From Lachnospiraceae bacterium (GTDB lineage Bacteria > Bacillota > Clostridia > Lachnospirales > Lachnospiraceae), in the NCBI GenBank assembly GCA_022791575.1, contig JAAVZI010000035.1, positions 1 through 64,000 on the forward strand: a stretch of 64,000 bases of DNA, in the 5' to 3' direction. The stretch's first letter is position 1. The number at the start of each line of letters is the position of its first letter. Shown piece by piece: positions 13,073-64,000 of this stretch. The notes beneath the pieces were generated by a model. The model ran no database searches. It saw only the letters and a list, made by a program, of their open reading frames with translations, and was not told where the DNA came from. Made by a program: the position numbers and the translations under genes.

Positions 13073-13269
13073 CATAAAAACAAACGCGCACTTCCACCGT
13101 GCGCACAGACCATTTGCTTCCATCCATGGAACCCCCAATGCTGCCGCAGAAACTGTGAGGCAAAAGTGCGGCCTGCATTTGCAGGCGCTGCTCAGTGGCA
13201 AAACTGGCTAAAAACCGTCGCACACAAAACCAGCCACACACAAAACCAGCCAACAGGAGAATAAAGACC

Positions 13270-13539
13270 ATGAGTACAGAAATAGAATTACTGGCCCATC
13301 TGGACCAGCTGCATACAACCGAATTAGGCGTTGGCCGTATTAAAAGCAATCTATCACTAGATACAGAGGATGTAGTAGAGTGGTGCAGAGAAAAGATCCA
13401 ATCCAAGCAGGCAGTCATTACAAGAAAGGGAAAAAATTGGTATATCCACGTGGATGCCTGTATCCTTACAGTAAATGCCCACAGCTACACCATCATCACC
13501 GCGCATAAAGAAAAACCATACCCAAAAAACAGCCCGTAA
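13270..13539 (+). CDS. DUF3781 family protein
   Basis: 89 residues from ATG 13270, preceded by CAGGAGAATAAAGACC. The pattern HTTELGVGRIKSNLSL, VVEWCREKI, ITRKGKNWYIHVDACI and NAHSYTIITAHK fits DUF3781, a small family of unknown function. It lies between the putative transporter and bioW, so it is probably transcribed with the biotin genes. No role in biotin synthesis is known. Confidence 0.75.
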   Translation: MSTEIELLAHLDQLHTTELGVGRIKSNLSLDTEDVVEWCREKIQSKQAVITRKGKNWYIHVDACILTVNAHSYTIITAHKEKPYPKNSP

Positions 13540-13616
13540 TGAACACATTTTGCGCTGTAAAAATCAGATAGAAGTTACCCCAAAACAGTTCCCCAGCAGA
13601 AAGAACAGGAATCCAC

Positions 13617-14345
13617 ATGAACCGTTACAGCATTAAAATGCGGGCCTCCAACAAAGAAGAAGGCCATATCTCCGGCGCCGAAAAAATCATCCCGGAAGAA
13701 GAACTGGAGCAGTACTGCACGCGGCTGTTAGCGCGCGCCTTGCAGCACAGCAAAGGAAAGCCCGATTTTATTAATCTAAAAATCGAAGCCATCAAAGAAG
13801 AAGAGATTCTGCGCCTCCCCGCCCTCCCGGTAACAACTGTTGAAACCGCCTCAGCCGAGGAGGGACAGGCAGTGGTACAAGACTACCTGCGCCGGCTGGG
13901 CCTTGCACACACCAAAGAAATACTCTCCATCTGGCAGCAAAGCTACGCCATGCGCGGCGCCATGCTTCTGCACGCCGACACGCTGCAGCGCCTAGAGCCC
14001 GACCGTGCGCGCGGAATCCGCGCCACCTACATGGATCTGGAAACCAGCGATCCGGCCGCAAAAACTGCCTGCAGCGGTAAAAACCATTTTAATGAAGCAC
14101 TCGTTCTGGCTACCAAAGTCGTCAGCCATCCCAATATTGTGGCCGAGCTGTGCATTTCCGACGACCCCGATTATGTCACCGGCTATATTGCCTCGAAACA
14201 ATTCGGCTACGTGCGCATTACAACCCTCAAAGAAATGGGAAGCCCCCAGGGCGGCCGCATTTTTCTGTTTCGTGGAAATGAACAGGAATGCAGCGCCTGC
14301 ATAGAATACTTGCAGCAGCAGAAAGTGCTCGTGCAGCGGACATAA
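13617..14345 (+). CDS. bioW: 6-carboxyhexanoate-CoA ligase (pimeloyl-CoA synthetase)
   Basis: 242 residues, normal for BioW. It activates pimelate with ATP and CoA to pimeloyl-CoA, the substrate of BioF. Family text includes YSIKMRASN and HISGAEKI near the start, ATYMDLETSDP in the centre and GGRIFLFRGN near the end. With bioF, bioB, bioD and bioA in the region, the cell can make biotin from pimelate; no bioC/bioH or bioI route is visible here. An AGAAAGAACAGGAATCCAC leader precedes ATG 13617. Confidence 0.94.
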   Translation: MNRYSIKMRASNKEEGHISGAEKIIPEEELEQYCTRLLARALQHSKGKPDFINLKIEAIKEEEILRLPALPVTTVETASAEEGQAVVQDYLRRLGLAHTKEILSIWQQSYAMRGAMLLHADTLQRLEPDRARGIRATYMDLETSDPAAKTACSGKNHFNEALVLATKVVSHPNIVAELCISDDPDYVTGYIASKQFGYVRITTLKEMGSPQGGRIFLFRGNEQECSACIEYLQQQKVLVQRT

Positions 14346-14445
14346 CATGCCCGACATATCCGTAATCGAACGTATTTGAACAAGCATTTACGCCCGCCGC
14401 ATTTCCCGCTTTGCGGGCAGTCTGCAGCAGAGGAAAGGAAGAGCC

Positions 14446-15609
14446 ATGAATAAATGGAAACGAATGGAAGATCATCTGTGTATGCTCCGGGAATCCCATC
14501 TGTACCGTACGCTCAAGGTTATTGAAAGCGCCCAGAGCTCCCACATCCGCTATCAGGGCCGGGAACTGCTGATGTTAGCCTCCAATTCCTATCTGGACTT
14601 CTGCGGCGAACCACGCATAAAACAGTACGCCGCAGAAATATTAGAACAATACGGAGTAGGCTCTGGCGGCTCCCGGCTGACTACCGGGACGACCGATTTA
14701 CATATCAAACTCGAAGAACACCTGGCCCGTTTCAAAGGACGGGAAGCGGCCATGGTCTTTAACACCGGCTTTGCTGCCAACAGCGGCGTCCTGCCGGCGC
14801 TCTGCCGGGACGGCGACGTCATTTATAGCGACGAATACAACCATGCCAGCATCATAGACGGCTGCCGCCAGTCGCGGGCAGAAACGGTCATTTACCGTCA
14901 TAACGACATGGACGATCTGGAGCAGAAAATCCTGGCTCGACCAGGACGTTTTGGATTGATTGTCAGCGACGGCGTATTTAGTATGGATGGAGATATCGTC
15001 AATCTGCCGCGGCTGGTCAGGCTGGCCGACACCTATGGCCTGCTGTCTATGATCGACGAAGCGCATGCCACTGGCGTCATTGGAAAGAGCGGCCGCGGCT
15101 GCGAAGAACATTTTCAAATGGAGGGCCGAACAGATGTTCTGATGGGAACTTTGAGCAAAGCACTTGGCACAGAGGGCGGCTACATCTGCGGCCCGCGCCC
15201 GCTGATTGAATATCTGAAAAATACAGCGCGTAGCTATATTTTCTCCACCTCTCTTTCACCGGTCACCATGGCGGCGGCCAAACGCGCACTGGAGCTGATC
15301 GAAGCAGAACCCCAGCGCATACAAAGGCTGCAGCAAAATATCCGCTGGTTCTGTCAATGTCTGCAGCAGCAGGGTCTGAACGCCCAGTCCGAGACGGCAA
15401 TCATTCCTATACGAATCGGTGACGAAGCGGCAGCTCTCCAGGCTTCCGAATGGCTGCTGCAGCACGGTTATTTTATCCCCGCTATCCGCTACCCCACAGT
15501 CCCCCAAGGCCAGGCCATGCTGCGCGCCGCGCTGATGGCAAGCCATACCAGAGAAGAGCTGGCCGGGGCGGCGCAGGCCATTGCCGAGGCAGTCAAAGCT
15601 GCAGGATAA
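14446..15609 (+). CDS. bioF: 8-amino-7-oxononanoate synthase
   Basis: 387 residues. This PLP enzyme condenses pimeloyl-CoA with alanine to KAPA. Visible are the glycine-rich YGVGSGGSRLTTGTTDLHIKL region, FNTGFAANSGV, the DEAHATGVIG motif (the Asp contacts the PLP ring nitrogen) and the PLP-lysine segment TLSKALGTEGGYICG. Length is typical. It starts 100 bases after bioW behind GAGGAAAGGAAGAGCC. The DNA is clearly more GC-rich than the flanking genes. Confidence 0.95.
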   Translation: MNKWKRMEDHLCMLRESHLYRTLKVIESAQSSHIRYQGRELLMLASNSYLDFCGEPRIKQYAAEILEQYGVGSGGSRLTTGTTDLHIKLEEHLARFKGREAAMVFNTGFAANSGVLPALCRDGDVIYSDEYNHASIIDGCRQSRAETVIYRHNDMDDLEQKILARPGRFGLIVSDGVFSMDGDIVNLPRLVRLADTYGLLSMIDEAHATGVIGKSGRGCEEHFQMEGRTDVLMGTLSKALGTEGGYICGPRPLIEYLKNTARSYIFSTSLSPVTMAAAKRALELIEAEPQRIQRLQQNIRWFCQCLQQQGLNAQSETAIIPIRIGDEAAALQASEWLLQHGYFIPAIRYPTVPQGQAMLRAALMASHTREELAGAAQAIAEAVKAAG

Positions 15610-15632
15610 ACAGCAAGGCCTATCACAAATTT

Positions 15633-15743
15633 TATTAGTAATTGCGTAAGTCGTATTTTAGGCGGTGTCAGTACTTGATTCGCTGCATTTTTGTATCGAT
15701 TGTCCAAACCCTGACAGTGAAATAAGAGTTTCGCAAGTGCCTA
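15633..15743 (+). repeat. Palindromic intergenic element, copy E (one arm deleted)
   Basis: The right arm and end of the element family are present: ATTCGCTGCATTTTTGTAT, then CGATTGTCCAAACCCTGACA and GAGTTTCGCAAGTGCCTA. The left end (TAATTGCGTAAGTCG) is also present, but the left long arm is missing, so the hairpin cannot form fully. Its loop edge (reverse strand GCGAATCAAGTACTGACA) matches that of copy C at 34156, suggesting one subfamily. It sits between bioF and bioB. Confidence 0.78.
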
Positions 15744-15772
15744 ACAAATTTACATAGAAAAGAGGAGCAATC

Positions 15773-16747
15773 ATGAGTATCGTGCAGGATTTAAAGGAAA
15801 AGGTATTAAATAGCGGACAGATCAGCAAAAAAGAGGCGCTAGAGCTATCACAAGCCCCATTGGCAGAGCTGACAGAAGCTGCAGATGAGATCCGCCGCAG
15901 ATTCTGCGGCGCAGGCTTTGACCTCTGCACCATTGTCAATGGCAAATGCGGCCGCTGCTCGGAGGACTGTAAATACTGCGCCCAGAGTGCCTATTATCAG
16001 AGCGAAAGCACGCAGAGCTACCCGCTTTTGTCCACAGAAGCGCTTTTAGAGGAGGCCAAACACAACGACGCCCAGGGGGTGCTGCGTTATTCGATTGTAA
16101 CCTCCGGCCGGAAGTTATCGGACCGCGAGGTGGAACAGGTCTGCGAAAGTATCCGTGCCATTAAAGCCCAGACCAGTCTCCAGGTCTGCGTATCGTTCGG
16201 TCTGCTTGAAGAAGAATCGTTTCGAAAACTCAAGGAAGCCGGCGCCTCCCGCGTGCACTGCAACCTGGAATCCTCAGCCGCATTTTTCCCCAGCGTCTGC
16301 ACCACCCACACCTACGAGGAAAAGATAGAGACGCTCAAAGCGGCCAAGCGGGCCGGCCTGTCTATCTGCTCCGGCGGCATTCTAGGGCTGGGCGAAACAA
16401 TGGAAGACCGCATAGATCTGGTTCTGACCGCAAGAGAGCTGGGCGTTAAATCAATCCCAGTCAATCTGCTCAATCCCATTCCCGGCACCCCTTATGAAAA
16501 TAATCAGCCTCTGAGCAGCGCAGAGGCGCGCCGCTGCGTGGCGGTGTTCCGCTTTCTGATTCCCGATGCGTCCATCCGCCTGGCCGGCGGCCGCGGCCTG
16601 TTGGGGGATAAGGGAAAAGGTTGTTTTCAGAGCGGCGCCAACGCGGCCATTTCCGGCGATATGCTGACAACGGCCGGCATTACGGTAGAAACGGACTTAC
16701 AGTTAATCAAAGAATTAGGATTCGAGGCGAGACTTTGCAATGAGTAA
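15773..16747 (+). CDS. bioB: Biotin synthase
   Basis: 324 residues. This radical SAM enzyme inserts sulfur into dethiobiotin. The radical cluster motif is CSEDCKYC (CxxxCxxC) preceded by VNGKCGRC. The SGGILGLGE and NLLNPIPGTPYE motifs and the auxiliary cluster arginine segment (SIRLAGGR) are present. An AGAGGAG site precedes ATG 15773. The last eight bases overlap the start of bioD, so the two are translationally coupled. Element copy E lies just upstream. Confidence 0.97.
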   Translation: MSIVQDLKEKVLNSGQISKKEALELSQAPLAELTEAADEIRRRFCGAGFDLCTIVNGKCGRCSEDCKYCAQSAYYQSESTQSYPLLSTEALLEEAKHNDAQGVLRYSIVTSGRKLSDREVEQVCESIRAIKAQTSLQVCVSFGLLEEESFRKLKEAGASRVHCNLESSAAFFPSVCTTHTYEEKIETLKAAKRAGLSICSGGILGLGETMEDRIDLVLTARELGVKSIPVNLLNPIPGTPYENNQPLSSAEARRCVAVFRFLIPDASIRLAGGRGLLGDKGKGCFQSGANAAISGDMLTTAGITVETDLQLIKELGFEARLCNE

Positions 16748-17423
16748 ACAGATATTTATAACGGGAACCGGTACCGACGTCGGCAAAACGTTTGTGACCG
16801 GATTGATTTTAAAGAAATTACAGGAAAGCGGCAGAAGCTGCGGCTACTATAAAGCCGCCATGAGCGGCAATGAGCGGCAAAACGGCACACTGATTCCAGG
16901 GGATGCGGTGTCTGTGAAACGTTGTTCGGGAATCAGCCAGCCCTTGGCAGAAATGTGTCCTTATGTCTATGAGCATGCCGTATCCCCCCATTTAGCGTCG
17001 CGGCTGGAGGGCAGTCCGGTGCGGCTGGACGTGGTGGAAGAGGGCTTTCAGCGGGTGTGCCGCACATATGATTATGTTACTGTGGAGGGCAGCGGCGGCA
17101 TTGTCTGCCCGCTTTGCTTTGACGAGACGAAGATTGGGCTGGAGGACGTGATTAAGCGGCTGGGGCTTTCCTGTCTGCTCGTTGCCCACGCCGGACTGGG
17201 TACAATCAACCAGGTTGTGCTGACCGTAGAATATATGCGTGCCCGCAGCATTCCGCTAAAAGGAATCATTTTCAATCATTTTCATGCAGGAAATGTCATG
17301 GAGGAGGATAATCTGCGCATGTGCAAATACCTGACCGGGCTGAACGTGCTTGCCTGCGTCGAGGACGGGGCGGAGCAGCTGGAACTGGAGGCGGATGACC
17401 TGGCTTCGCTGTATGAAGAGTAG
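16740..17423 (+). CDS. bioD: Dethiobiotin synthetase
   Basis: 227 residues. It closes the ureido ring of DAPA using ATP and CO2. The P-loop is GTGTDVGKTF, followed by the YYKAA lysine, the VEGSGGIVCPL segment and the base-binding FNH region. Normal length. Its start overlaps the bioB stop. Confidence 0.96.
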   Translation: MSKQIFITGTGTDVGKTFVTGLILKKLQESGRSCGYYKAAMSGNERQNGTLIPGDAVSVKRCSGISQPLAEMCPYVYEHAVSPHLASRLEGSPVRLDVVEEGFQRVCRTYDYVTVEGSGGIVCPLCFDETKIGLEDVIKRLGLSCLLVAHAGLGTINQVVLTVEYMRARSIPLKGIIFNHFHAGNVMEEDNLRMCKYLTGLNVLACVEDGAEQLELEADDLASLYEE

Positions 17424-17519
17424 AAACGCTGGAAAATATCGTTGGCAGGTAAAATCCTGCCATCTTTTATGCGCAAAATGGGGAAAACAGAGAGAGGTTC
17501 CATTAATGGATGTTGTATG

Positions 17520-17568
17520 TTGACTTTTCGTTCTAAGTTTTATATAATTAAAACAGATGTTATAGAAC
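17520..17568 (+). promoter_or_regulatory. tetR promoter with a candidate operator
   Basis: TTGACT (17520-17525), a 17-base spacer and TATAAT (17543-17548). GTTTTA-TATAAT-TAAAAC is a perfect palindrome centred on the -10. An outer GTTCTA/TAGAAC pair flanks it. The position suits repression by the TetR protein encoded 28 bases further on. Confidence 0.55.
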
Positions 17569-17595
17569 AATGGTTTTAGAAAGGGGCTGACCAAT

Positions 17596-18156
17596 GTGCC
17601 ACCAAAAGCAAAATTTACCAGAGCACAGATTACACAGGCTGCTTTAGAGCTCGTGAGGGAAGAGGGGATTGGCGGATTGACTGCAAGAACGCTTGCGAAG
17701 AAGCTTGGAAGTTCTTCCTGCCCGATTTTTACGGTATTTGAAAATATGGAAGAGGTACAGCAATCGGTGTTGGAAGCTGCCAAAGCCTGTTACAAAGGGT
17801 ATGTAGAGCAAGGGCTTGCGCAGGCCGCTGCCTTTAAGGGCGTAGGGACGCAGTATATTCTTTTTGCCGTTCAGGAGCCGAAGTTGTTTCAGCTTCTGTT
17901 TATGAATGAGCAGAGCGCGGTTCCTGATATTGACGGAGTACTGCCCATAATTGATGAAAGCTATGAAAAAATCCTTGCTTCTATAACAGAGGGATACGGA
18001 CTTGACAAGGAGAGCGCCGAGAAGCTGTATCGCCATTTATGGATTTACTCGCATGGAATTGCAGCCCTGTGCGCTACAAAGATGTGTCATTTTTCAGGCG
18101 AAGAAATAAGCGGAATGATGACAGAAGTAATGGTTGGGCTGATGGAACGTGTTTGA
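17596..18156 (+). CDS. TetR/AcrR family regulator
   Basis: 186 residues. The N-terminal helix-turn-helix spans about residues 8-55, with TARTLAKKLGSSSCPIFTVF as recognition region; the C-terminal part is all-helical ligand-binding sequence. It starts at GTG 17596 behind AGAAAGGGG. It separates bioBD from bioA. Whether it controls biotin genes or only itself and the next small protein is not clear. Confidence 0.88.
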   Translation: MPPKAKFTRAQITQAALELVREEGIGGLTARTLAKKLGSSSCPIFTVFENMEEVQQSVLEAAKACYKGYVEQGLAQAAAFKGVGTQYILFAVQEPKLFQLLFMNEQSAVPDIDGVLPIIDESYEKILASITEGYGLDKESAEKLYRHLWIYSHGIAALCATKMCHFSGEEISGMMTEVMVGLMERV

Positions 18157-18240
18157 GTATTAAATTATGTCAATCATATTTTAGAGCAGGACACATGCAT
18201 TACGGAAGGCCCGTTCGGGACTAGTCAGGAGGAACGCAGT

Positions 18241-18441
18241 ATGGATTTATGGAAAATATTTGAAATGGACGAACATTTAACAGAGTTGTGGAAGGAGTTA
18301 GGCATGAGTGCAGGGACAGCAATTGTTGTTCTGATTGCCTTGTATTTTGTGATAAAATGGGCGGTTAAAAATGGAATATTGGAAGCCCATAAAAAGATGG
18401 AAGAAAAGAAAATCGAGCAGAAGGCAGTAATGAACAAATAA
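18241..18441 (+). CDS. Small single-span membrane protein
   Basis: 66 residues. One membrane helix (about residues 25-45, GTAIVVLIALYFVIKWAV) is followed by a Lys/Glu-rich helix (EAHKKMEEKKIEQKA). CAGGAGGAACGCAGT precedes ATG 18241. No family was recognised. It lies between tetR and bioA on the same strand. Confidence 0.6.
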   Translation: MDLWKIFEMDEHLTELWKELGMSAGTAIVVLIALYFVIKWAVKNGILEAHKKMEEKKIEQKAVMNK

Positions 18442-18496
18442 GAAGTGGTACAAACGAATGAAAGAAACAAGGTTTTCAGTTAAGGAGAGATGAACT

Positions 18497-19696
18497 ATGA
18501 TTTGGTATCCATACCAACAAATGAAGACAATGAAGACGCCATATAAAATCATCGACGCCCAGGGTGTTTTTCTTTACACGGAGGATCAGAAGCTGATTGA
18601 TTCGGTTTCTTCGTGGTGGAGCGTGATTCATGGCTATAAGCATCCGGTTTTGACCGAGGCCATCAAGGCGCAGGCGGATCATTTTTCCCATGTCATGCTA
18701 GGCGGGCTGACGCATGAGCCGGTACAAAAATTAGCCGACAAGCTGGCACAATGGCTGCCGGGGGATTTGGATTACTGCTTTTTCTCGGATTCCGGCAGTG
18801 TGGCGGTGGAAGTGGCATTGAAAATGGCGCTGCAATATTATGTAAACCAAAAGGACTGGAAGCGAACCAAGGTTTTATCACTGACCCATGCGTACCACGG
18901 CGATACATTTAAGGCGATGGAAGTGGGGGATGATGAGGATTATCATTTTATTCTGGAAGCATATGGCGAGAAGAAAGATGTCATTCATATTCCTACGCAG
19001 ATTTCAGCGCTGGAGGAAGCATTTTCCAGGTATCACGAGGAGCTCAACTGCATGATTGTAGAGCCGCTTCTGCAGGGTGCGGGCGGCATGCGCATGTACG
19101 ACGTGTCATTCTTGCAGCGGGCAAGGCAGCTGTGCGACGAATACGGGGTGCTGCTGATCTTCGACGAGGTGGCGACAGGCTTTGGGCGCACCGGAAATCG
19201 TTTTGTCTCGGATCTGGTGCAGCCGGATATCCTTGTGCTGGGCAAAGCGCTGACCGGCGGTTATATCGGGCATGCGGTCACAATTGCCAATCATAGGGTA
19301 TATAACGGCTTTTATGGGGATGAGCCGGACAAGGCGCTGATGCACGGGCCGACCTTTATGGGAAATGCGCTGGCCTGCAGTGTGGCCTTAAAGTCTATTG
19401 AGCTGTTTGAGCAGGGTGATTATCTGTCCAAAATCGCCCGCATTGAGGAGATTACCAAACGGGAAATGGCAGGGCTTTCACACCCGCAGATTCGTGAGGT
19501 GCGGATCATGGGCGGCTGTGTCTGTGTGGAGGTAAGGGGCGCGGCTTCGCTGCAGGGATTTCAGCAGTTTGCCTATGAGCGCGGCGTGTTTAGCCGGCCG
19601 TTTCTGAATTATATGTATGCGATGGTGCCATATGTGCTCAATGAGGACGAGCTGGTGCAGGTGCTGACTGTAATGAAAGAGTGGTTTCGGCAGTAA
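18497..19696 (+). CDS. bioA: Adenosylmethionine-8-amino-7-oxononanoate aminotransferase
   Basis: 399 residues. This PLP aminotransferase converts KAPA to DAPA, with S-adenosylmethionine as usual amino donor. It begins with WYPYQQMKTMKTP, a BioA-type start. Other motifs are SWWSVIHGYKHP, the GSVAVEVALKMALQYY helix, HAYHGDT, DEVATGFGRTG and the PLP-lysine in LGKALTGGYIGHA. It completes the biotin set, though separated from bioD by tetR and the 66-residue protein. Confidence 0.95.
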   Translation: MIWYPYQQMKTMKTPYKIIDAQGVFLYTEDQKLIDSVSSWWSVIHGYKHPVLTEAIKAQADHFSHVMLGGLTHEPVQKLADKLAQWLPGDLDYCFFSDSGSVAVEVALKMALQYYVNQKDWKRTKVLSLTHAYHGDTFKAMEVGDDEDYHFILEAYGEKKDVIHIPTQISALEEAFSRYHEELNCMIVEPLLQGAGGMRMYDVSFLQRARQLCDEYGVLLIFDEVATGFGRTGNRFVSDLVQPDILVLGKALTGGYIGHAVTIANHRVYNGFYGDEPDKALMHGPTFMGNALACSVALKSIELFEQGDYLSKIARIEEITKREMAGLSHPQIREVRIMGGCVCVEVRGAASLQGFQQFAYERGVFSRPFLNYMYAMVPYVLNEDELVQVLTVMKEWFRQ

Positions 19697-19707
19697 GGAG
19701 AAGAACG

Positions 19708-20277
19708 ATGGGAAAACGAGATAAGTTAAGTGTATTTATCAGCCTTGTGCTGCGGCATAATCCTGGTGCGGCTCAGATTACCTTAGACGAGCATGGCTGG
19801 GCGGACGTGAAGGAATTGCTGGCAGGAGTGAACAACACAGGAAGAAGCATTGACCGGGAAACGTTGGAGGAGATTGTTCGAACGGATCAAAAGCAGCGGT
19901 ATTCTTTTAGTGAAGATCATTCGTTGATCCGCGCCAACCAGGGGCACAGCATTTCTGTGGATGTGGAGTTAAAGGAGCAGGAGCCGCCGGAGGTTCTATA
20001 TCATGGAACGGCGCAGCGGTTTTTGGATCTTATCCGGCTGGAGGGATTAAAGCCAATGAGCCGACTGTATGTGCACCTTTCGAAGGAGATCGAAACTGCG
20101 GCTCAGGTTGGCAGACGGCATGGGCAGGCAGTGATTTTGCAGGTCAAGAGCGGGCAGATGAGCCGTGACGGCGGGAAGTTCTATCTTTCTGAAAATGGCG
20201 TGTGGCTGACGAAGAGGGTGGATGTGAAATATTTGAAGAAGCTGGATGGGTCAGGCTGTGAAGAAAGGGAAGTTTGA
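19708..20277 (+). CDS. kptA: RNA 2'-phosphotransferase, Tpt1/KptA family
   Basis: 189 residues from ATG 19708, chosen for the TAAGGAG site eight bases upstream and 11 bases after the bioA stop. KptA enzymes transfer an RNA 2'-phosphate to NAD. Family motifs are LRHNP, the HGW/ADVKELL winged-helix domain, YHGTAQRF, SRLYVHLS and the C-terminal GVWLTKRV. Bacterial members lack the tRNA-splicing route of eukaryotes and their natural substrate is not settled. The link with bioA is probably only positional. Confidence 0.92.
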   Translation: MGKRDKLSVFISLVLRHNPGAAQITLDEHGWADVKELLAGVNNTGRSIDRETLEEIVRTDQKQRYSFSEDHSLIRANQGHSISVDVELKEQEPPEVLYHGTAQRFLDLIRLEGLKPMSRLYVHLSKEIETAAQVGRRHGQAVILQVKSGQMSRDGGKFYLSENGVWLTKRVDVKYLKKLDGSGCEEREV

Positions 20278-20412
20278 AACTACTTCGATGAATGAGAGGC
20301 TGGGTAAATGTTAAGAAAAAACTGGCACATGCATAAGCTGTATTGAAAAAATCGATGCTTGTTCAAAAAAATTAAAAATCAGAGGATTGAACCAGATTGG
20401 AATCAGTTGTGA

Positions 20413-20466
20413 AAATCTTTGCAGTTGGCAAAACGCGATAAATAGTGCTGCTGCAAAGATTTTTTT
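20413..20466 (+). terminator. Terminator after bioA-kptA
   Basis: AAATCTTTGCAG (20413-20424) pairs with CTGCAAAGATTT (20451-20462) and runs into a seven-base T tract. Confidence 0.78.
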
Positions 20467-20966
20467 ATGGTAAATATTATTTTGGATATAAATTGCCAAT
20501 TCAGTTAAAAAATGTATGTTGATATATAGAAAAATTTTAAATTATTTAAATTACAGTTTATTTAATTACAAATAATGGTATAAGTATTGAAAATGTGCTG
20601 TAATTAATTTTCCAAAAATATATAAGAAGAAATGAATTTAAAAAAAAGCCTTTTTTCAAACAAAATTTGCGAGAGACCATGCTTACACAAGCATTTATAT
20701 CTGCTATTTAGGGCGGAAATAATAAGGAACTACAATAAAACAATAATGATACGAAACAAAATAAAAAAATTTTATTGAAGTGCAACCAAAACAGATAATT
20801 ACGATGTTATATAATAAGGTGCAATAAAATTAGAAAATGTAATAGTTATCATTATTCTGATGTACAGTGAGACAGAATTTGAAAGCATTCAATGCTGACA
20901 GAAGAGGCGGGTGAGGCCACATATATTTAAGTATGGATTACTGACAGAAAACAAAAAGGAGGTTCT
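20467..20966. other. AT-rich non-coding stretch
   Basis: About 500 bases, very AT-rich, without a credible gene on either strand. AAAGGAGGTTCT at its end is the ribosome site of the secreted protein. No structured RNA was recognised. Confidence 0.5.
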
Positions 20967-22097
20967 ATGAAAATAAAACAAATGAAAACCAAAAGTAAAT
21001 TATCTATCCTGCTAATCGTAGGAATGTTAGCCATAGGAAGCTCTCTTTGTACTGTTCAGGCAAAGGAAGTTTCCGAAGAAATTCGGGTGAATTTCGTTGG
21101 TAAAGAAGCGCTACAAAATAAAATGCAACCATTCTATTATGAAAATGATGACCCAGATGATATTAAAAATGTAAACATCACAACCCAAGAAGCGATTGCT
21201 GCCCAAGAAGAAAGGACAGTTGGAGAGGTTGGATTGGGGTATAGTCCTGGTATCATTCATGTATATTTTGATCGTAAAAAAGCAGGCGAAAAAGTTATAG
21301 AACTTGGATTGGAAAATGAGACAGCTCTTTATCAAAAAGCTTTAAAAGAATATGGAGATAACGATATATCCGAGCAAATGAGCAGTAGCGACACCATGAT
21401 GGTTCAGATCAGCCTGAACAAAAATAAAACTGTTTCAACAGCAGTAAAACAATATTCTGCATTACCTTATGTTACAGGTGTATATCCCATTAAGACAACT
21501 CATGAAGTGGAGCCCTTTGAACCGCCCTCAAACTTTAAACCAGATGGCATATACCCGGTTTATAATGACGATTCCATATCGCTTGGCTGTGTCTGTCCAA
21601 ATGCCTCTTTTTATACAAAATACCGTTGGGAATACTGCAAAATAGGAACCAATGAATGGAAACTTCTCAGCGACTGGAGCACAAGCGAATGGTGCACCTG
21701 GTATCCAGATGCCAATGAAGATTATGCAGTCGTATGCAAGGTATCTTATCATGGCCGCGGAGAAATAACAGCACAAACCGTATGGTATGCCTCCCGACCA
21801 CAGATGAAAAAACGTATTACCGGCCGCTGTGCACTGCCAGACAAAGATGGAATCTTATTCGGCTGTACATCCACTGTCGGAAAAAATGATGCTGGCTACT
21901 TAACAACTTGTTATATCTGGAGCTTTGACCAGCAGAGCTGGATCACCAAATCCGCCTATGAAGCCTCCAACTGTGCATGGTTCCGTTCCTCTGTTCTACC
22001 CAAAGGTACATACATGATGTACAATTGCACCGAACGGCGGCTGCCAGATGGAACGCTGCGCAAATTAAGCTGCGATTATTACGTATTTACAATATAA
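20967..22097 (+). CDS. Secreted Cys/Trp-rich protein of unknown function
   Basis: 376 residues. A signal peptide covers about residues 1-32 (basic start, then LSILLIVGMLAIGSSL, cleavage after VQA). The middle contains an alpha/beta segment (MVQISLNKNKTVSTAVKQY). The C-terminal half (about 195-376) carries at least ten spaced Cys and many Trp/Tyr residues (CVCPNASF, WEYCKIG, EWCTWYP, TTCYIWSFDQQ, MYNCTERR, LSCDYYVF). It is probably a disulfide- or aromatic-stabilised beta domain outside the cell. No enzymatic motif was seen. A broken paralogue lies at 10503. Confidence 0.75.
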   Translation: MKIKQMKTKSKLSILLIVGMLAIGSSLCTVQAKEVSEEIRVNFVGKEALQNKMQPFYYENDDPDDIKNVNITTQEAIAAQEERTVGEVGLGYSPGIIHVYFDRKKAGEKVIELGLENETALYQKALKEYGDNDISEQMSSSDTMMVQISLNKNKTVSTAVKQYSALPYVTGVYPIKTTHEVEPFEPPSNFKPDGIYPVYNDDSISLGCVCPNASFYTKYRWEYCKIGTNEWKLLSDWSTSEWCTWYPDANEDYAVVCKVSYHGRGEITAQTVWYASRPQMKKRITGRCALPDKDGILFGCTSTVGKNDAGYLTTCYIWSFDQQSWITKSAYEASNCAWFRSSVLPKGTYMMYNCTERRLPDGTLRKLSCDYYVFTI

Positions 22098-22123
22098 CAG
22101 TTCCGAAGTCGTTCGATTAATAA

Positions 22124-22180
22124 TATACTCTCCTTATAGTGATAGATGATTAGTTGCCTGTCTACTATAAGGGGAGTATA
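22124..22180. repeat. 17-bp inverted repeat downstream of the secreted protein
   Basis: TATACTCTCCTTATAGT (22124-22140) pairs with ACTATAAGGGGAGTATA (22164-22180) with one G-U pair. No T tract follows, so it may be a processing site or a poor terminator. It also marks the edge of the broken ABC gene. Confidence 0.6.
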
Positions 22181-22740
22181 TCATACTATAAACCGCTTGA
22201 TTGACAGATCAATCAATACGTCTGGAACTTCGCTCCGGAATTTGCACAATAGTTTCAACCACTATATACAAACCATGGCAAAGCTGAAGAGCCACAAAGG
22301 CGTACATAGTATTATTTTCCAGAAAGTTCAGGAAGTGGATCTGGAAAACTATGATATTACGAAATTCTATAACGATTATATCTGGGCTCTGGAAAAGGCG
22401 GATACCCAGATTCTAAGCAGCTATGAAAATCTGTGCCATTTTTACGAGGCATTTGGCAATGCAGCCGCCCTTTTTTCGGTAACTTTGTTTTATCGACGAA
22501 GCTTCCAGCGCGCTTGATCCGATTTCTGAAGCTTAGATTAATCAGACAATTATGGAACAGATGAAAGAAAAGAGCATGATTATCATTTCCCATCGGCTTT
22601 CAACAATCCAGCATGTGGATACCATATATTTTTTGGAACAAGGACAGGTTCTCTAACAGGGTAGCCATGAAGAATTAATGGCATACAATGGAAAATATGC
22701 GGAAATGTACACCGTCCAGGCGCAGCAATATGTTTTGCCG
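22146..22740 (+). pseudogene. Broken ABC exporter
   Basis: The upstream frame holds part of an exporter membrane domain (ENYDITKFYNDYIWALEKAD region). Near 22485 it shifts and jumps to the end of a nucleotide-binding domain: FIDEASSALDPISEA, then a stop, NQTIMEQMKEKSMIIISHRL with the H-loop, LEQGQVL, another stop, and GSHEELMAYNGKYAEMY. Walker A and the signature motif are missing. It therefore has an internal deletion, a frameshift and at least two nonsense codons and cannot be functional. Confidence 0.82.
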
Positions 22741-22881
22741 TCTGGGTGCAGATTGTGCCGGATTGGTGCAGAAGAACATTTCCCCGCGGATGTATGATAC
22801 AATAACGGCAGAATTTGATAAAACCAGCAGGCGGGCAGGAATTTCCAGTTCCGCAGGCCGGTCAACGCAAGGAGGAGAATT

Positions 22882-23226
22882 ATGCCGTTTATTCATTCCA
22901 GAGTCAGCGCCACTATGACCCAACAGCAGAAGGAAACCATTATAAAGGAGCTGGGAGAAGCGATTGCCATCATTCCAGGAAAATCTGAGGAGTGGCTGAT
23001 GGTAGAGCTTGCCGACCAATGCGATCTCTATTTTCGAGGAAGAAGAGAGAAAGCACTGGCCTATATTGAAGTAAAGGTGTTCGGCAAGATTTCTGCGGAC
23101 GCCGCACGCAGCCTGACAGAGCGTATCTGTGCTATTTACGAAACGCATCTGCAGATTGAAAGGGACTGTGTTTATATAAAATACGAGGAAGTCAGCAAAT
23201 GGGGCTGGAACGGAAGTAATTTTTAG
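22882..23226 (+). CDS. MIF-like tautomerase superfamily protein
   Basis: 114 residues, the length of macrophage-migration-inhibitory-factor homologues. Met1 precedes Pro2, which becomes the catalytic N-terminal proline (MPFIHSRVSA). IPGKSEEWLMVEL and the ending VSKWGWNGSNF fit the bacterial MIF group. A CAAGGAGGAG site supports ATG 22882. The enzymes tautomerise keto/enol substrates; the physiological substrate is unknown. Confidence 0.87.
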   Translation: MPFIHSRVSATMTQQQKETIIKELGEAIAIIPGKSEEWLMVELADQCDLYFRGRREKALAYIEVKVFGKISADAARSLTERICAIYETHLQIERDCVYIKYEEVSKWGWNGSNF

Positions 23227-23426
23227 TGCGGATTTGGAGGTGCAAATTCGCTTTGGGAATGTAACAATAAGAATCGGGCATTGGGGGATGCTGGGTTCTT
23301 TTTTTCGTATGAATTGTTCTGGCAGGGATTTCATGCTATAATTGAATGAAAACATTCAAAACGATGTTAGGAACGATTTAAAAATTATTTCTTAACAGTT
23401 TCTTGGAGTAAGAAAGGGGAACAGCC

Positions 23427-57194: not shown

Positions 57195-58571
57195 ATGAAA
57201 AATATTAAAGGTTTAGTTTTGTATAGTTTCTTCATTATGTTGGTGCTTTTATTTCCAATGGCATCATTTGCTCATTCTGGAAGAACAGATAGCAGTGGCG
57301 GGCATAAAGATAATAAAAATAAAAGTGGACTGGGTTCTTATCATTATCATTGTGGTGGACATCCGGCACATTTACATACAAATGGGGTATGTCCATATAG
57401 CAATAATGGAGGCAGTTCAAAATCAACTGTGAATACTCCTGCGCCAACACCGGTACCAACACCTGTGCCTACGCGTTCGCCATCCATTTCGTTAAAGAGT
57501 TATCCTAATATTCTTAAGGTTGGTGAAAGTTCAAAAGTAGAGTATTCCATAGAACATGCAGCAGATAGCAAGAGTGAGATCATATCAAGCAGCCCGGAGA
57601 TTGTTAAGGTAAATAAGGATGGTACTCTGACTGGAGTAGGAGTAGGAACTGCGGAAATAACAATCAAAGCCTCGGGTGTTGTGCAGACATTTCCTGTGGA
57701 AGTACAAGCAATACCAGTGGATCATATACAAATTACTAATGTTATAGACAAGCTTCAGTTGGGAAAAACATATAAATTTAATATTTCTGTGTTACCTGAT
57801 AATGCTACAGACAAAACGGTTACTTGGCAGTCTGATCATACGGAAATCTTAGACGTAAATCATGATGGAACGATTGTAGCCAAATCAGCAGGTGTTGCTA
57901 CAATTACATGTGTATCTTTAAATAATATAGAATGTAAAGCAGTTGTTGAAGTGTATGAAATCTTACCGCAGGAGATAAGATGTGAAGATTTTATTAAAGT
58001 TACTATAGGGGATACCTATCAATTGTCTATTGATATTCTCCCAAAAGATACAAATAGGAAAGAGTATACTATTATTAGTGATGATGAGGGAATTGTAAAA
58101 TGTTCTGATTCGTCTATATCTGCACTTAACGAAGGTACGGCTACTTTATCTATTGAAACATGGAATGGAATCAAAAAAGAGATACCTGTACAGATTGAGG
58201 CAATTCCTGTAAAAGATATAAAAATTCAAGATACAACCGATTATATGTATTCGAATATTATTAATACATCTGATAAAATATTGCTTGATGTTGAAATAAG
58301 CCCAAGTAATGCCACACATCAAGATGTTATATGGAAGAGTTCTGATAAAAGTATTATTGATATCGAACATAATGAATTTATTATTAAGGGTACAGGGAAA
58401 GTAATACTTTCATGTATTGTGAATGACAGTATTCGTGAGGAGATTGAGATTGTAATTATCAATAAGAATTTGATTATTGGAATAAGTATGGTGGCAGGAA
58501 TAATTATTGTTATTGTATGTTTCTTTATTTATAAAAAGGTAAGTAAAAGAAAAATGTCAATTTCTAATTAA
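57195..58571 (+). CDS. YHYH-domain surface protein with Ig-like repeats
   Basis: 458 residues. Signal peptide about 1-26 (LVLYSFFIMLVLLFPMASFA). Residues about 27-70 form the YHYH domain (AHSGRTDSSGGHKDNKNKSG, then GSYHYHCGGHPAHLH). A Thr/Pro linker leads to four Big_2-like domains (about 95-425) with DGTLTGVGVGTAEITIKA-type units. A membrane helix (about 432-450) and a Lys/Arg tail (KKVSKRKMS) end the protein. It is a membrane-anchored cell-surface protein. The His-rich head probably binds metal. Confidence 0.86.
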   Translation: MKNIKGLVLYSFFIMLVLLFPMASFAHSGRTDSSGGHKDNKNKSGLGSYHYHCGGHPAHLHTNGVCPYSNNGGSSKSTVNTPAPTPVPTPVPTRSPSISLKSYPNILKVGESSKVEYSIEHAADSKSEIISSSPEIVKVNKDGTLTGVGVGTAEITIKASGVVQTFPVEVQAIPVDHIQITNVIDKLQLGKTYKFNISVLPDNATDKTVTWQSDHTEILDVNHDGTIVAKSAGVATITCVSLNNIECKAVVEVYEILPQEIRCEDFIKVTIGDTYQLSIDILPKDTNRKEYTIISDDEGIVKCSDSSISALNEGTATLSIETWNGIKKEIPVQIEAIPVKDIKIQDTTDYMYSNIINTSDKILLDVEISPSNATHQDVIWKSSDKSIIDIEHNEFIIKGTGKVILSCIVNDSIREEIEIVIINKNLIIGISMVAGIIIVIVCFFIYKKVSKRKMSISN

Positions 58572-58706: not shown

Positions 58707-58751
58707 AAAAATAGAACTGGCAGATTTGATAATTTCTGCCAGTTCTATTTT
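58707..58751. terminator. Bidirectional terminator
   Basis: A perfect 17-bp stem, AAAATAGAACTGGCAGA with TCTGCCAGTTCTATTTT and a ten-base loop. It separates the convergent YHYH gene and the repeat-rich fibre gene. A and T runs serve both strands. Confidence 0.85.
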
Positions 58752-58784: not shown

Positions 58785-61700
58785 TTATTTTAAAATTACA
58801 GAAATGATATGATCGTTGATTCGTTCGATTACCATATATGTGTCAAAATCTCGTTTGGAAGCATAAGTTGCGATTCCGTCGGTTCCGCATTTGCATAAAT
58901 GTCCGGCAATGCAGGTTCCGTCATCGCGGACTGGAAGTACACCGATCATGCCGACATAGTCCCATTCTCTTCGGTCTTTTCGTTCTACATAGGTGTTCTG
59001 ACGGGATGGATCATAATTAGCAGATTGCTTCATTTTTGCATTTTTTAGTATATTTCCAGTTTCTATTTTAATTGGCTGATTTGTTTTTTCATCATAGATT
59101 ACATTTCCATTTTCATCTGTTTTTTCGATAGTTTCAAGTATATCCTCCATAATAACCCGGTTGAATTCATCTCGTTCCCAGCGCCAGTAATAATCTTCAT
59201 CTGCATTTCCGACAACAGATGGACAGCCGGAGGTGATTCCTGCAATCAGATCTCCTTCGTTGGCTTTGTGAAGCAGTCCGTTTTTGACAGTTACAAAATA
59301 TCCAACCCGGTCTTCGTTCTGTTCATTGTTGTCGTGCCAAGGTTTGATGAATTCGGCATAGTCAGCGCCGGAGGATTTAAAGGCGGATGTGCCATAAACT
59401 TCGCCACTATAGGTTACACGGAATGCGTTAGAGCGGGCAGTGTCGGAGGTGCCGTTGCCTACAACGAAACAGTCAGCTGTTTGGTTGTCTTCTTCAAATG
59501 TTTGACCTTTCATTTCTTTATTATATTTTCCACTAGCATGAGAACCGATAGTAATAGCTCTAGTGTAATAACCTTCAGCATGAGAAGCAGGATTACTTGT
59601 ATAGGTGTGAGAACCCTCGGAATGACTTCCATATCCAGTAGAGATACAACTATTTCCTTCTGCATGGCTGTTGCTTCCTGATGCTTTACAACCATCTCCT
59701 TCAGCATGTGAACCATATGCACTGGAAGTACATGCATAACCTTCAGCATGTGCATAATTATAGGTTGCTTTACAACTTCTGCCTTCAGCATGAGAAGCTA
59801 ATCCTTCTGAAATATTTCCATAGCCTTCAGCGTGAGAAGCTTCGCCTTTTGAATAATTTCCCCTTCCTTCAGCAAAAGAGTATTGTCCACTGGCTGAATT
59901 AATAAACCCAACTGCACAACTGCGTTCGCCAATTGTGGAATTTAATTCTCTTCCTAAATTAATCGTTGTATCACCATAAATACTTTTCAAAGCATATGCA
60001 TTTGTATCTATATCACCTGAACTATTCTCCCACGGAACGTTAACAAATGCATTATGATTACTATCTAACTGTACCTTATAGTTTTTCCCATTATTGTTAT
60101 ATCCTGTCTTTATTCCACCCAATATAGAAGAAGCGGCTGCAGGCAGAGTATAGTTATTTGCATCCGCTGAAATATTATTCAGTTTAGTAACCATTTCAGA
60201 AGTCATAAGTCCGTTAGTGCCGGGAGTGGCGGCAGTATAGGTAGTATCGGTATCCATAACAGTGCTTTCAGAACCATCGCTTCCAGTTAATTTAATAGTA
60301 GAGCCGGATTTTGAAAGATTGTAGGTAACCGCATTACCTGTCAGATGACTTAAGCTGTTTTCCTTGTCGCCATTGACATAAATATCGCCGCTTAAATACA
60401 GATTCCCTTCCCAGTCAAGGGTAGAAATATTCTTTCTGTCGCTGTTGCTTGTGCCACCTCCGATAATGTCAGCATATTTTCCTTCGGTGTCTTCTATGTT
60501 GTATTTTCCCTGGACATGCTGGCAGCTACATGTTTCTCCGGTTATGGTTTCCCGGCCTTCTGCGTGGGAATTGGTTCCTTTAGCGATGGTTTCTTCGCCT
60601 TCTGCATGGGAGTTTGAGCCAGAGGCAGTTGAGAAGGAGCCTTCCGCATGGGAAGAATGTCCCTCAGTGGATGTATAATTGCCTTCTGCATGGGAGCATT
60701 GTGCCAAGGAGGTTGTTCCAAAACCTTCTGCGTGTGAAGAATCCCCAGCAGCAGTAGAATCCTGTCCTTCCGCATGAGAATATTCACCAGAGGCAGTAGT
60801 GCTTTTTCCTTCTGCGTGTGATGAGAATGCTTCTGCCTTTGTACTTTGCCCTTCTGCATGGCTGTCCTGTCCAGAGGCGATGCTTCCCCAGCCTTCGGCA
60901 TGAGAATTTGCTTCGCTGGCAATTGTTTGAAATCCTTCTGCGTGAGAATCGGAACCAGAAGCTTTTGTTTCGGTTCCTTCCGCATGGCTGCCGTCACCGG
61001 AAGCAGTGGTGCTTAATCCTTCCGCATGGCTGTATTGTCCAGAAGAGGTGGTGTGTGTCCCTTCCGCATGAGAACTTTCACCAATGGATGTAGTGTTATT
61101 TCCTTCCGCATGAGAATATTCACCAGAAGCAGTAGTGCTTTTCCCTTCTGCGTGTGATGAGAATGCTTCGGCTTTTGTGCTTTGTCCTTCCGCATGGCTG
61201 TCCTGTCCAGAGGCGATGCTTCCCCAGCCCTCCGCATGAGAATTTGCTTTACTGGCCGTTGTTTCATGTCCTTCGGTATGAGAATATAATCCAGATGCTA
61301 ATGTTCGATAGCCTTCCGCATGGCTGTTTGGCCCAGAAGCAGTCGTATGTTCTCCTTCTGCATGACTGTGGTTTCCAGATGCAACGGAATCCTTCCCTTC
61401 GGAATGTGCATGATCGCCTGTAGCAGAACTTCGATAGCCTTCAGCATGGGAACTAACGCCACTGGCAGTTGTGCTGCAGCCCTCTGCATGGCAGGCTGCA
61501 CCTTCGGCTTTTGTGTTTTGCCCTTCCGCATGGCTGTCCTGCTCTGAGGCAATTGTATAACTTCCTTCCGAGTGGGAATCTATACCGCTGGCAACAGTTT
61601 CAATCCCTTCAGCGTGACTAGCATATCCGCTGGCAGTAGTATTGTTTCCTTCAGAATGGGAGCATTGTGCTGTGGCTTTACTAACAGCTCCTTCCGCATG

Positions 61701-62480
61701 CGCCCAAGCGCCGCTGGCAATAGATTCTTCCCCTTCTGCATGGGAGCAGTCCCCGCTGGCTTCGTTGTTGCGTCCAAAAGAAAAGCTGCTGTTTCCGACA
61801 GTAGTATCTGCTTTGCGGTTCATATTCACGGAACTGCGGGAATAGATCCTGCCGTCAGCAAAATTCGGGGAGTTCGTTACATCCCTGATTTTATTGTCTA
61901 TTTCCTGGGAAGTATAAGTTCCAACCTGGGAAGCTGTGACCTGATGCGGATTTAATTTATTAGTTACATGATTTTCGTATTGAGTTACTTTTTCTTCAAA
62001 TGTATCGATTTTGCCAATAAAGTCTTCGAATCTTTCATATTCGCTTGATGACACCACATCTTCTTCTCGCTTCACTCCAGCTTCTACACGCATTTTGAAT
62101 AATACACTTTTTAATGTTGTAGTGCTGGATGCGCTATTCCCTTGAAGTATGGATAACTTACAGTGCAGTATGCCTTCTACTGCGCAGGTATTTTTTCCAA
62201 CGGTATAATTTAATATTAAAGGGGTGGTGCTTTTGATCCGAATATGGTTGTGATCTGTGATTTTATCAGTGGTGGACGTGATGATAGTTGTGCCGTCCGG
62301 TTTGTCAATCTGTAGTTTGCAGATGAATTGGTCAGTGGTGGCTGCAAGAGGAGTGTAATCGGCTCCATTTTGCATGACATGGAACTGAATTCCGCGGCCG
62401 CCGTCTTCCCCCTGCTGAAGTGTGCATAAAACTTTATCCGAATAGGAATTTAAGTCAATATCTAAATTGTAGTTTATCAT
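58785..62480 (-). CDS. Phage-fibre-like protein with YadA-head repeats and a Peptidase_G2-type tail
   Basis: 1231 residues behind AAAGGAGG. About 1-200 resembles phage baseplate upper protein BppU (MINYNLDIDLNSYSDKV, KLQIDKPDGTTIITSTTDK). Residues 246-651 hold 29 tandem 14-residue units of the form SHAEGxxTxASGxx, as in YadA heads. A linker with LSGDIYVNGDKENS leads to a second block of eight to nine units (about 866-985). The last 220 residues (NAFRVTYSGEVYGTSAFKSS, GADYAEFI, DRVGYFVTVKNG) match the Peptidase_G2 intramolecular chaperone that cleaves itself off trimeric fibres. It probably forms a trimeric receptor-binding fibre. No portal, capsid or lysis genes are in the window. Confidence 0.82.
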   Translation of the reverse strand: MINYNLDIDLNSYSDKVLCTLQQGEDGGRGIQFHVMQNGADYTPLAATTDQFICKLQIDKPDGTTIITSTTDKITDHNHIRIKSTTPLILNYTVGKNTCAVEGILHCKLSILQGNSASSTTTLKSVLFKMRVEAGVKREEDVVSSSEYERFEDFIGKIDTFEEKVTQYENHVTNKLNPHQVTASQVGTYTSQEIDNKIRDVTNSPNFADGRIYSRSSVNMNRKADTTVGNSSFSFGRNNEASGDCSHAEGEESIASGAWAHAEGAVSKATAQCSHSEGNNTTASGYASHAEGIETVASGIDSHSEGSYTIASEQDSHAEGQNTKAEGAACHAEGCSTTASGVSSHAEGYRSSATGDHAHSEGKDSVASGNHSHAEGEHTTASGPNSHAEGYRTLASGLYSHTEGHETTASKANSHAEGWGSIASGQDSHAEGQSTKAEAFSSHAEGKSTTASGEYSHAEGNNTTSIGESSHAEGTHTTSSGQYSHAEGLSTTASGDGSHAEGTETKASGSDSHAEGFQTIASEANSHAEGWGSIASGQDSHAEGQSTKAEAFSSHAEGKSTTASGEYSHAEGQDSTAAGDSSHAEGFGTTSLAQCSHAEGNYTSTEGHSSHAEGSFSTASGSNSHAEGEETIAKGTNSHAEGRETITGETCSCQHVQGKYNIEDTEGKYADIIGGGTSNSDRKNISTLDWEGNLYLSGDIYVNGDKENSLSHLTGNAVTYNLSKSGSTIKLTGSDGSESTVMDTDTTYTAATPGTNGLMTSEMVTKLNNISADANNYTLPAAASSILGGIKTGYNNNGKNYKVQLDSNHNAFVNVPWENSSGDIDTNAYALKSIYGDTTINLGRELNSTIGERSCAVGFINSASGQYSFAEGRGNYSKGEASHAEGYGNISEGLASHAEGRSCKATYNYAHAEGYACTSSAYGSHAEGDGCKASGSNSHAEGNSCISTGYGSHSEGSHTYTSNPASHAEGYYTRAITIGSHASGKYNKEMKGQTFEEDNQTADCFVVGNGTSDTARSNAFRVTYSGEVYGTSAFKSSGADYAEFIKPWHDNNEQNEDRVGYFVTVKNGLLHKANEGDLIAGITSGCPSVVGNADEDYYWRWERDEFNRVIMEDILETIEKTDENGNVIYDEKTNQPIKIETGNILKNAKMKQSANYDPSRQNTYVERKDRREWDYVGMIGVLPVRDDGTCIAGHLCKCGTDGIATYASKRDFDTYMVIERINDHIISVILK
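59525..59883 (-). repeat. Second block of 14-residue repeats in the fibre gene
   Basis: About eight to nine 42-base units encoding SHAEG- or AHAEG-type repeats with more variation (SFAEGRGNYSKGEA, AHAEGYACTSSAYG, SHSEGSHTYTSNPA), ending in SHASGKYN. Confidence 0.8.
60528..61745 (-). repeat. Main block of 29 tandem 42-base repeats in the fibre gene
   Basis: 29 units of 42 bases encode the 14-residue head repeat. Three consecutive units (WGSIASGQD, QSTKAEAFS, KSTTASGEY cores) occur twice with identical protein sequence. At DNA level the copies begin near 60781 and 61117, exactly eight units (336 bases) apart, with only scattered silent changes. This shows growth by unequal recombination. Confidence 0.88.
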
Positions 62481-62603: not shown

Positions 62604-64000
62604 TTATTTTTTGTTTTTTCTATACGCATAACCGATTTTGCGCATAATAGAATCGTTTTCTTTTACAGCCAGTGAACTAATGTTATCGCAGGTAAAAGAA
62701 AAATTTTTCTCTGGGTCCGAGAAATCAATATGAATTTCTTTTATTGTTACTTGTAATGTGTAATCATTGCGCAGGACAATATTGATTTTATTGCCTAATG
62801 AAAAAAGATGTTTTTGAATCACCCCCTTAAATTCTTCTCGCATAAACAGGTTGGCCGTATCTGCAGTAAAAGAAAGAGAGGGTTTATTTAGCTCGCAGAT
62901 TTTTGTTAATCCATTCTGGTATAGTCTCTGGGAATTCTTAAGGATTTCTGCACGGCTATCATCCTTATGGAGTTTAAAGTTACTGTCCCGGTATTCATCC
63001 TCAGATTCAAGTGCTTTTAGGATACGGATTTCATCTTTAGTAAAATAAGGTTTGCCACAGATTCCCATTTTCTCTTTGATCTTATCATTGGAAAGATCTC
63101 CGTTCGGGTCCATAAATGCAGAATAGCAAAGATCATAGATCCAGCTGTTGCAGCCATGTCCATCAGAACGATAAATAAATTCTATGGGTTCCAGCGGAAT
63201 GGTTTCTTTATGAACGGAAGAAGAACTGTTTTCTTCGGAATATTCATAATTATAAACGGTTTTCTCCAAATCCTTGCATATATCATTACTCCATCCATAA
63301 CCGAATGCATTTCCGCCTGCACCTAATTCAGAAAAATGTTCAATAGCTCCCAAATATTGTGTTTTGGCAATGATAAATTCATAATTGTCATTCACAAATA
63401 ATTTGTTATTGAGAATTTGGTTTTCTTCCCATTTATTAGATTTGAATATATTGTTGCTGGTGGATGGAAAATCGTTGTCATGAACAAAACCTTCATAGGA
63501 ATAATAGTTACGCAGGACTTCAGACATATGTCTCAGAGCCGGAATGATTTCATTTTCATAACGTATTCGAAGAATGAAATTTTTGATAAATAATCCATTG
63601 GAGTAAAATTTCTGAATGGACTTGTAAATATGCTCTCTGGAATATTCCTGCTCACCTGAAGTTCGTTTTTCCATTTCTGCTTCAATCATAGTATCAAGAG
63701 TACAGATACCTTCTTTTAAATAGTTAATTCCATATTCAGGAAGGCACAAGAGCTGTTTTGTGTCAACCAGAGATTGAACTTGCTTTTTGACATAATGCTT
63801 TATATAACGTCTAAGAAATATAGTTTCAAGGGTATATTTATAATTCTCAGCCTCTTCTCTCTTTTTTTCTGCTTCTGCCCAATTTCCTTCCGCTTCTTTG
63901 TCTGCCATCTCCTTTTCTGCTTTGGCAATAGCTTCTTCATACATATCAAGTATTTCATAATTATATTTGCTAAACCATTCCCACACATGCTGTCCGTTCT
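62604..64000 (-). CDS. Probable phage tail structural protein, C-terminal part (runs off the window)
   Basis: At least 460 residues; the frame is open to the window edge and ATG 63986 has no ribosome site, so the true start is outside. A Lys/Glu coiled coil (about 15-50) comes first. The C-terminal segment (SLSFTADTANLFMREEFKGV, then LGNKINIVLRNDYTLQVTIK and the FSDPEKNFSFTCDNISSL end) has the layout of clostridial phage minor tail or baseplate hub proteins. Assignment rests on this layout and on the fibre gene next to it. Together they suggest the edge of a prophage or tail-like particle locus. Confidence 0.6.
   Translation of the reverse strand, partial: NGQHVWEWFSKYNYEILDMYEEAIAKAEKEMADKEAEGNWAEAEKKREEAENYKYTLETIFLRRYIKHYVKKQVQSLVDTKQLLCLPEYGINYLKEGICTLDTMIEAEMEKRTSGEQEYSREHIYKSIQKFYSNGLFIKNFILRIRYENEIIPALRHMSEVLRNYYSYEGFVHDNDFPSTSNNIFKSNKWEENQILNNKLFVNDNYEFIIAKTQYLGAIEHFSELGAGGNAFGYGWSNDICKDLEKTVYNYEYSEENSSSSVHKETIPLEPIEFIYRSDGHGCNSWIYDLCYSAFMDPNGDLSNDKIKEKMGICGKPYFTKDEIRILKALESEDEYRDSNFKLHKDDSRAEILKNSQRLYQNGLTKICELNKPSLSFTADTANLFMREEFKGVIQKHLFSLGNKINIVLRNDYTLQVTIKEIHIDFSDPEKNFSFTCDNISSLAVKENDSIMRKIGYAYRKNKK

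Follow-up and report, generated by a model that had tools for sequence, protein, structure and literature searches.

The unusually long fibre of 1231 residues encoded on contig C72 (72275 bp), of which bases 1–64000 form the window analysed here, is probably the receptor-binding fibre of one module in a headless, non-contractile tail array that derives from an SPbeta-like phage. The resulting particle would be a domesticated one, similar to F-type tailocins. Domestication is considered probable because the array is headless and lies behind its own YonO-like polymerase in many gut Lachnospiraceae. The features on which this reading is built are listed in Table 1.

Table 1. Coordinates of the fibre, its domains and the associated features; positions without a prefix are those of the window.
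Feature	Position	Strand	Basis or remark
Fibre ORF, 1231 aa	58785..62480	(-)	Uninterrupted; BppU-like base, YadA-head shaft, Peptidase_G2 tail
BppU-like N-terminal domain, residues 1-133	62082..62480	(-)	Paralogue identity, alignment, fold match
Helical stalk, residues 139-215	61836..62066	(-)	AlphaFold2 helix 145-176; low confidence beyond residue 177
YadA-head block 1, 30 units x 14 aa, residues 223-642	60555..61814	(-)	Exact periodicity
YadA-head block 2, 9 units, residues 859-984	59529..59906	(-)	Periodicity
Peptidase_G2 intramolecular chaperone, residues 1001-1212	58845..59480	(-)	PF11962 4e-24; 3GQH/phi29 gp12 match
Hub (Tal-like), 779 aa	C72:62604-64943; 62604..64000 (~465 C-terminal codons) in window	(-)	Homology and position
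Hairpin and T-rich tail behind fibre stop	58708..58751	(-)	Fold -24.1 kcal/mol, z -5.8
Sigma-like gene, 720 aa	C36:20459-22621	(-)	Sigma-70-like N-terminus and GmrSD_N/DUF262-like part, both below curated cut-offs
Split tape measure / insertion	C36:31303-32511; C70/C72 junction (L015 2858-3331 with L004 15072-15276); L118, L134, L140, L169		
Zinc-ribbon gene	L004:14601-15071	(+)	

The shaft of the fibre consists of YadA-head units, and the corresponding Pfam family (PF05658) matched the protein with an E-value of 9e-17. In the first block, all 29 consecutive unit spacings measure exactly 14 residues, and self-identity amounts to 0.50–0.51 at lags of 14, 28, 42 and 56 residues against a mean of 0.08 at non-multiples of 14. 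The block is followed by a degenerate unit, and a spacer of about 200 residues lies between the two blocks. Strict counting gave 38 units in the whole fibre and loose counting 39–41. The first-pass annotation was thus right about the periodicity and slightly low in its counts (29 regular units, about 37 in all). Within block 1, a stretch of 49 residues (412–460) recurs identically 112 residues, or 8 units, later, with 94% identity at the DNA level, and this exact repeat suggests a recent duplication. A YadA_anchor was sought with Pfam and NCBIfam at the C-terminus of the fibre and gave no match; that position is occupied by the Peptidase_G2 domain, whose presence had been proposed from the sequence and was confirmed by the Pfam match. 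The domain aligns with gp12 of phi29 (3GQH) and with SPR. By alignment, the solved phi29 chain begins at the Asp of S/DFAEYF (the slash marks the cut) and the equivalent site of the fibre reads GA/DYAEF. For this reason self-cleavage is predicted between A1039 and D1040 in the motif GADYAEF, the codon of D1040 being located at 59361-59363.

The assignment of the N-terminus required structural comparison. Pfam BppU_N gave no match to the fibre's own N-terminus, and a BppU-like paralogue on contig C87, which is 35–37% identical to it, reached 1.7e-4, which falls slightly short of the cut-off. Sequence-based profile searches of the PDB, done with the BppU alignment and with the hub alignment, returned no phage baseplate match. 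The model of the N-terminal domain, submitted to Foldseek, matched best the baseplate of TP901-1 (4v96, 8.6e-9), and those of NF5 and 80alpha were found too. Comparison with the isolated ORF48 (BppU) domain of TP901-1 (3uh8) gave 8.5e-7 and a TM-score of 0.73 to the target. As the fold search matched, the BppU identity is taken as settled; the type of N-terminus proposed earlier is supported by this fold match together with the weak Pfam score of the paralogue, the direct Pfam result being negative.

The fibre gene is the last of a tail module with the order tape measure, Dit, hub and fibre, all on the minus strand. Its neighbour, described before as an apparent tail hub, is a real gene cut by the edge of the window, and its product shares 40% identity with the hub encoded at the tail locus on C87. 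Extending the analysis past position 64000, as had been advised, revealed the remainder of the hub gene, a Dit gene (DUF6558, phrog_33) and a tape-measure gene (phrog_4211 match); capsid and lysis genes were not recognised on the array contigs. No stop interrupts the fibre, hub and Dit genes, and the tape-measure gene contains a TAA in frame close to its end. The terminator claimed at the fibre gene corresponds to the hairpin behind its 3' end, which is likely the terminator of the array. A consensus terminator scan missed this hairpin because its loop has 10 nt, and it was found by folding. Chromosomal genes are located beyond it. A Big_2-domain protein (57195-58571 of the window, plus strand) adjoins the end of the array.

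Contig C72 ends in a repeat, and overlaps of 117 or 141 identical bases link the ends of C36, C70, C29 and C72. A single path uses all of these overlaps, C36-C70-C29-C70-C72, which rests on repeat overlaps of the assembly and not on long reads. Along this path, the C72 module comes last, at the 3' end, in a tandem series of tail modules that is flanked on both sides by chromosomal genes, with the translation genes infB and nusA on one side and a metA-like gene (recognised by eye) on the other. At the 5' end a sigma-like gene is divergent from the YonO-like polymerase gene, which is followed by a phrog_4051 protein and by three tail modules. The C36 module, with a hub and a BppU-like fibre of its own, is open apart from a conserved insertion; the C29 module is truncated in the tape measure, beside a PF04754 transposase-like gene. 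A fourth tail module stands alone on C87 between chromosomal genes with no polymerase nearby. The genome has three full copies of the tail tube (90–100% identical to the query copy), and the predicted fold of the tube (mean pLDDT 75, moderate) matched best the tail tube of phage SPR (8ygm, E 5e-14). The gene set is thus of the siphophage type, with tube, tape measure, Dit, hub (assigned by homology and position) and fibre. No lysis gene was recognised among the ORFs of this genome's array contigs; holin and amidase occur in several headless loci of relatives (for example G014/L118). Tandem or multi-contig cassettes of tube and tape measure, resembling the C36-C72 array, were also seen in Lachnospiraceae bacterium isolate A96_90.MI.DSS (L121, L116, L117).

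The array polymerase is a single chain of 923 residues of the YonO/RdRP kind, with the motif SDKDGD at residue 546. The D-x-D-G/S-D triad is kept in 50 of its 52 relatives, one of which matched RdRP (PF05183) at 1.2e-8. Identity to SPbeta-group phages is 23.5% over residues 115–609 (tblastn) and reaches 35–37% with Enterocloster phages such as CB457P1 and PMBT24. YonO is a DNA-dependent enzyme that transcribes the late structural and lysis genes of SPbeta (PMC5467207). The divergent sigma-like gene may encode a promoter factor or a regulator of the polymerase.

Head genes were searched for at several levels. No terminase, portal or capsid was recognisable among the ORFs of the array contigs, nor was any replication gene, and PF05065 (capsid) and PF04860 (portal) are absent from the whole genome. 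Scans with these two families miss other head-gene families, and their absence alone is not decisive because the head genes of a prophage on C42 belong to such other families. The terminase match on C42, first recorded as having stops inside, turned out to be an open gene of this separate contractile-tailed prophage (L219), which also carries an SPP1-type portal and a sheath; the idea of a genome without any head genes was dropped accordingly. A complete prophage next to the fibre, the case that would have spoken against the first-pass annotation, was not found, and the head genes that were located are those of the C42 prophage. The relative G086, assembled as a single contig, has the same headless locus, and neither PF05065 capsid nor PF04860 portal occurs anywhere in its genome.

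By kinship, the host belongs to the Lachnospiraceae. The tube profile, run against named genomes, retrieved 77 loci, nearly all labelled as Lachnospiraceae, Clostridia/Eubacteriales or member genera; among 397 genomes of the family, the tube was found in 18 and the polymerase in 30. Linkage to the polymerase was counted in the 59 tail-tube loci with at least 9 kb of upstream sequence. The polymerase lies upstream on the same strand as the tube in 50 of them, and 38 of the 59 have the divergent sigma-like gene in addition. From the polymerase stop to the tube start the median distance is 1.8 kb, and in 48 of the 50 loci it is below 3 kb, too short for a head module. Locus L166 has a gap of 6 kb with an ORF of 449 residues that, judged by eye, is a putative portal. 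A complete relative, G321, carries, in this order, polymerase, terminase (phrog_2, 2e-20), portal (phrog_2739, 1e-24), phrog_4051, tube and tape measure. Because there are phages that carry this polymerase and these tail genes along with terminase and portal, the array resembles a phage from which the head module has gone; most simply, the segment separating the polymerase from the tail genes would have been lost. The same gene order has been retained in many species.

The tape measure is split at one shared place in the comparable modules: the front part ends at phrog_4211 position 943 and the back part starts at 960–965. In G321 it is one uninterrupted gene of 2115 residues. The insertion shows, in several loci, group-I-intron-like Q/R/S elements in order, and an Rfam search for a group I intron gave no match at any threshold used. 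A group I intron with putative splicing is regarded as a lead. Zinc-ribbon genes lie antisense in the insertion (all 25 on the minus strand) and were found in 19 of 25 front/back pairs; about ten tandem copies are present in G086 (L041/L042, joined positions 12713-23294). They could form an array of immunity genes or be carried by an intron.

Relatives of the fibre were found in 16 of the 397 family genomes. A scan of viral contigs with the whole fibre as query retrieved none. A match on C37 was set aside, as it is surrounded by transporter genes. Each pair of domains (YadA-head with G2, BppU with YadA-head, BppU with G2) is present in related tail or prophage loci, and a tail locus of G340 has a YadA-G2 fibre about 21 kb downstream of its YonO-like polymerase. 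Among the relatives examined, only the C72 fibre combines all three domains in one chain, and its 38–40 YadA-head units compare with at most 23 in the others.

From these data the following function can be proposed. The YonO-like polymerase would transcribe the tail genes of the array late, by analogy with YonO in SPbeta. The fibre chains would assemble into trimers with the aid of the G2 domain, which would then cut itself off at the predicted site. The BppU end would dock on the Dit/hub complex, and the YadA head of about 40 units would form a long beta-solenoid that keeps the surface for receptor contact at a distance from the tail. The particle would attach to related Gram-positive gut bacteria and most likely kill them, as an F-type tailocin does.

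The main competitor to this domesticated tailocin-like particle is a decaying remnant, in which the fibre would be intact in a headless prophage leftover whose module no longer makes tails. It is the less favoured reading, at roughly one chance in four, and draws on the in-frame TAA in the tape measure of C72, the truncated tape measure of C29 beside its transposase-like gene and the C87 locus devoid of a nearby polymerase. The TAA is indeed the reason to suspect that this particular module may be decaying; other possible accounts are a sequencing error and a fibre-gene reservoir for recombination. Against decay in general stand the open fibre, hub and Dit genes of C72 and the C36 module, open apart from the conserved insertion, as well as the shared gene order in many species and the polymerase triad kept in nearly all relatives. 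Plain decay would not preserve one headless layout across many species.

An ordinary prophage whose head genes were missed in a fragmented assembly appears improbable. The genome is in 94 contigs and complete phages found in relatives carry a polymerase and a tube of this kind, but both flanks of the array are chromosomal, the contig ends join through repeats and the single-contig G086 shows the same headless locus. The first-pass annotation had left the choice between a prophage and a domesticated tail-like particle: the tail genes, the polymerase, the chromosomal flanks and the absence of recognisable head genes favour the latter, and the ordinary prophage is not supported. Very improbable is a cell-surface adhesin of the trimeric autotransporter kind, which the YadA-head repeats and weak NCBIfam matches to Ata, BimA, EmaA and YadA (far under the cut-offs) would suggest; the lack of a YadA anchor, the BppU base, the G2 chaperone, the position in a tail operon and the Gram-positive host all speak against it.

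Beyond this genome, it is about an even chance that the chromosomal YonO-like polymerases of Lachnospiraceae are dedicated engines of domesticated headless tail arrays, with the sigma-like gene serving promoter recognition and tandem modules with differing hubs and fibres providing several target specificities per cell. The Lachnospiraceae gene set now appears as a headless phage tail with a candidate promoter factor as neighbour. If true, common gut bacteria would possess a polymerase-driven, modular tailocin-like system with exchangeable fibres, of which the C72 fibre is one example. Taken singly, the fibre domains, the headless tail and the YonO-like polymerase are all known; no description of a conserved, modular, polymerase-headed headless tail locus in Lachnospiraceae was found in the open-licence papers searched.

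At the level of the fibre, a Peptidase_G2 chaperone with a DYAE-type site is common to phi29 gp12, the G2 fibres of the SPbeta group, Lachnospiraceae prophage fibres and the C72 fibre, the cleavage site being S/DFAE in phi29 and the predicted one here GA/DYAEF. With SPbeta/SPR and the Enterocloster phages the array shares the YonO-like polymerase and the SPR-type tube fold, and with SPR also the G2 fibre; those are full phages of about 97–131 kb, whereas the array keeps only polymerase, regulator and tail genes. The F-type tailocins (Listeria monocins, F-pyocin, rhizoviticin) likewise consist of a headless non-contractile tube, tape measure, Dit/hub and fibre encoded in a chromosomal cluster; holin and amidase occur in several array relatives, and no lysis gene was recognised in this genome's array. 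Unlike F-type tailocins, the array has an SPbeta-like tube, a split tape measure with an antisense zinc-ribbon gene, and tandem modules behind one YonO-like polymerase.
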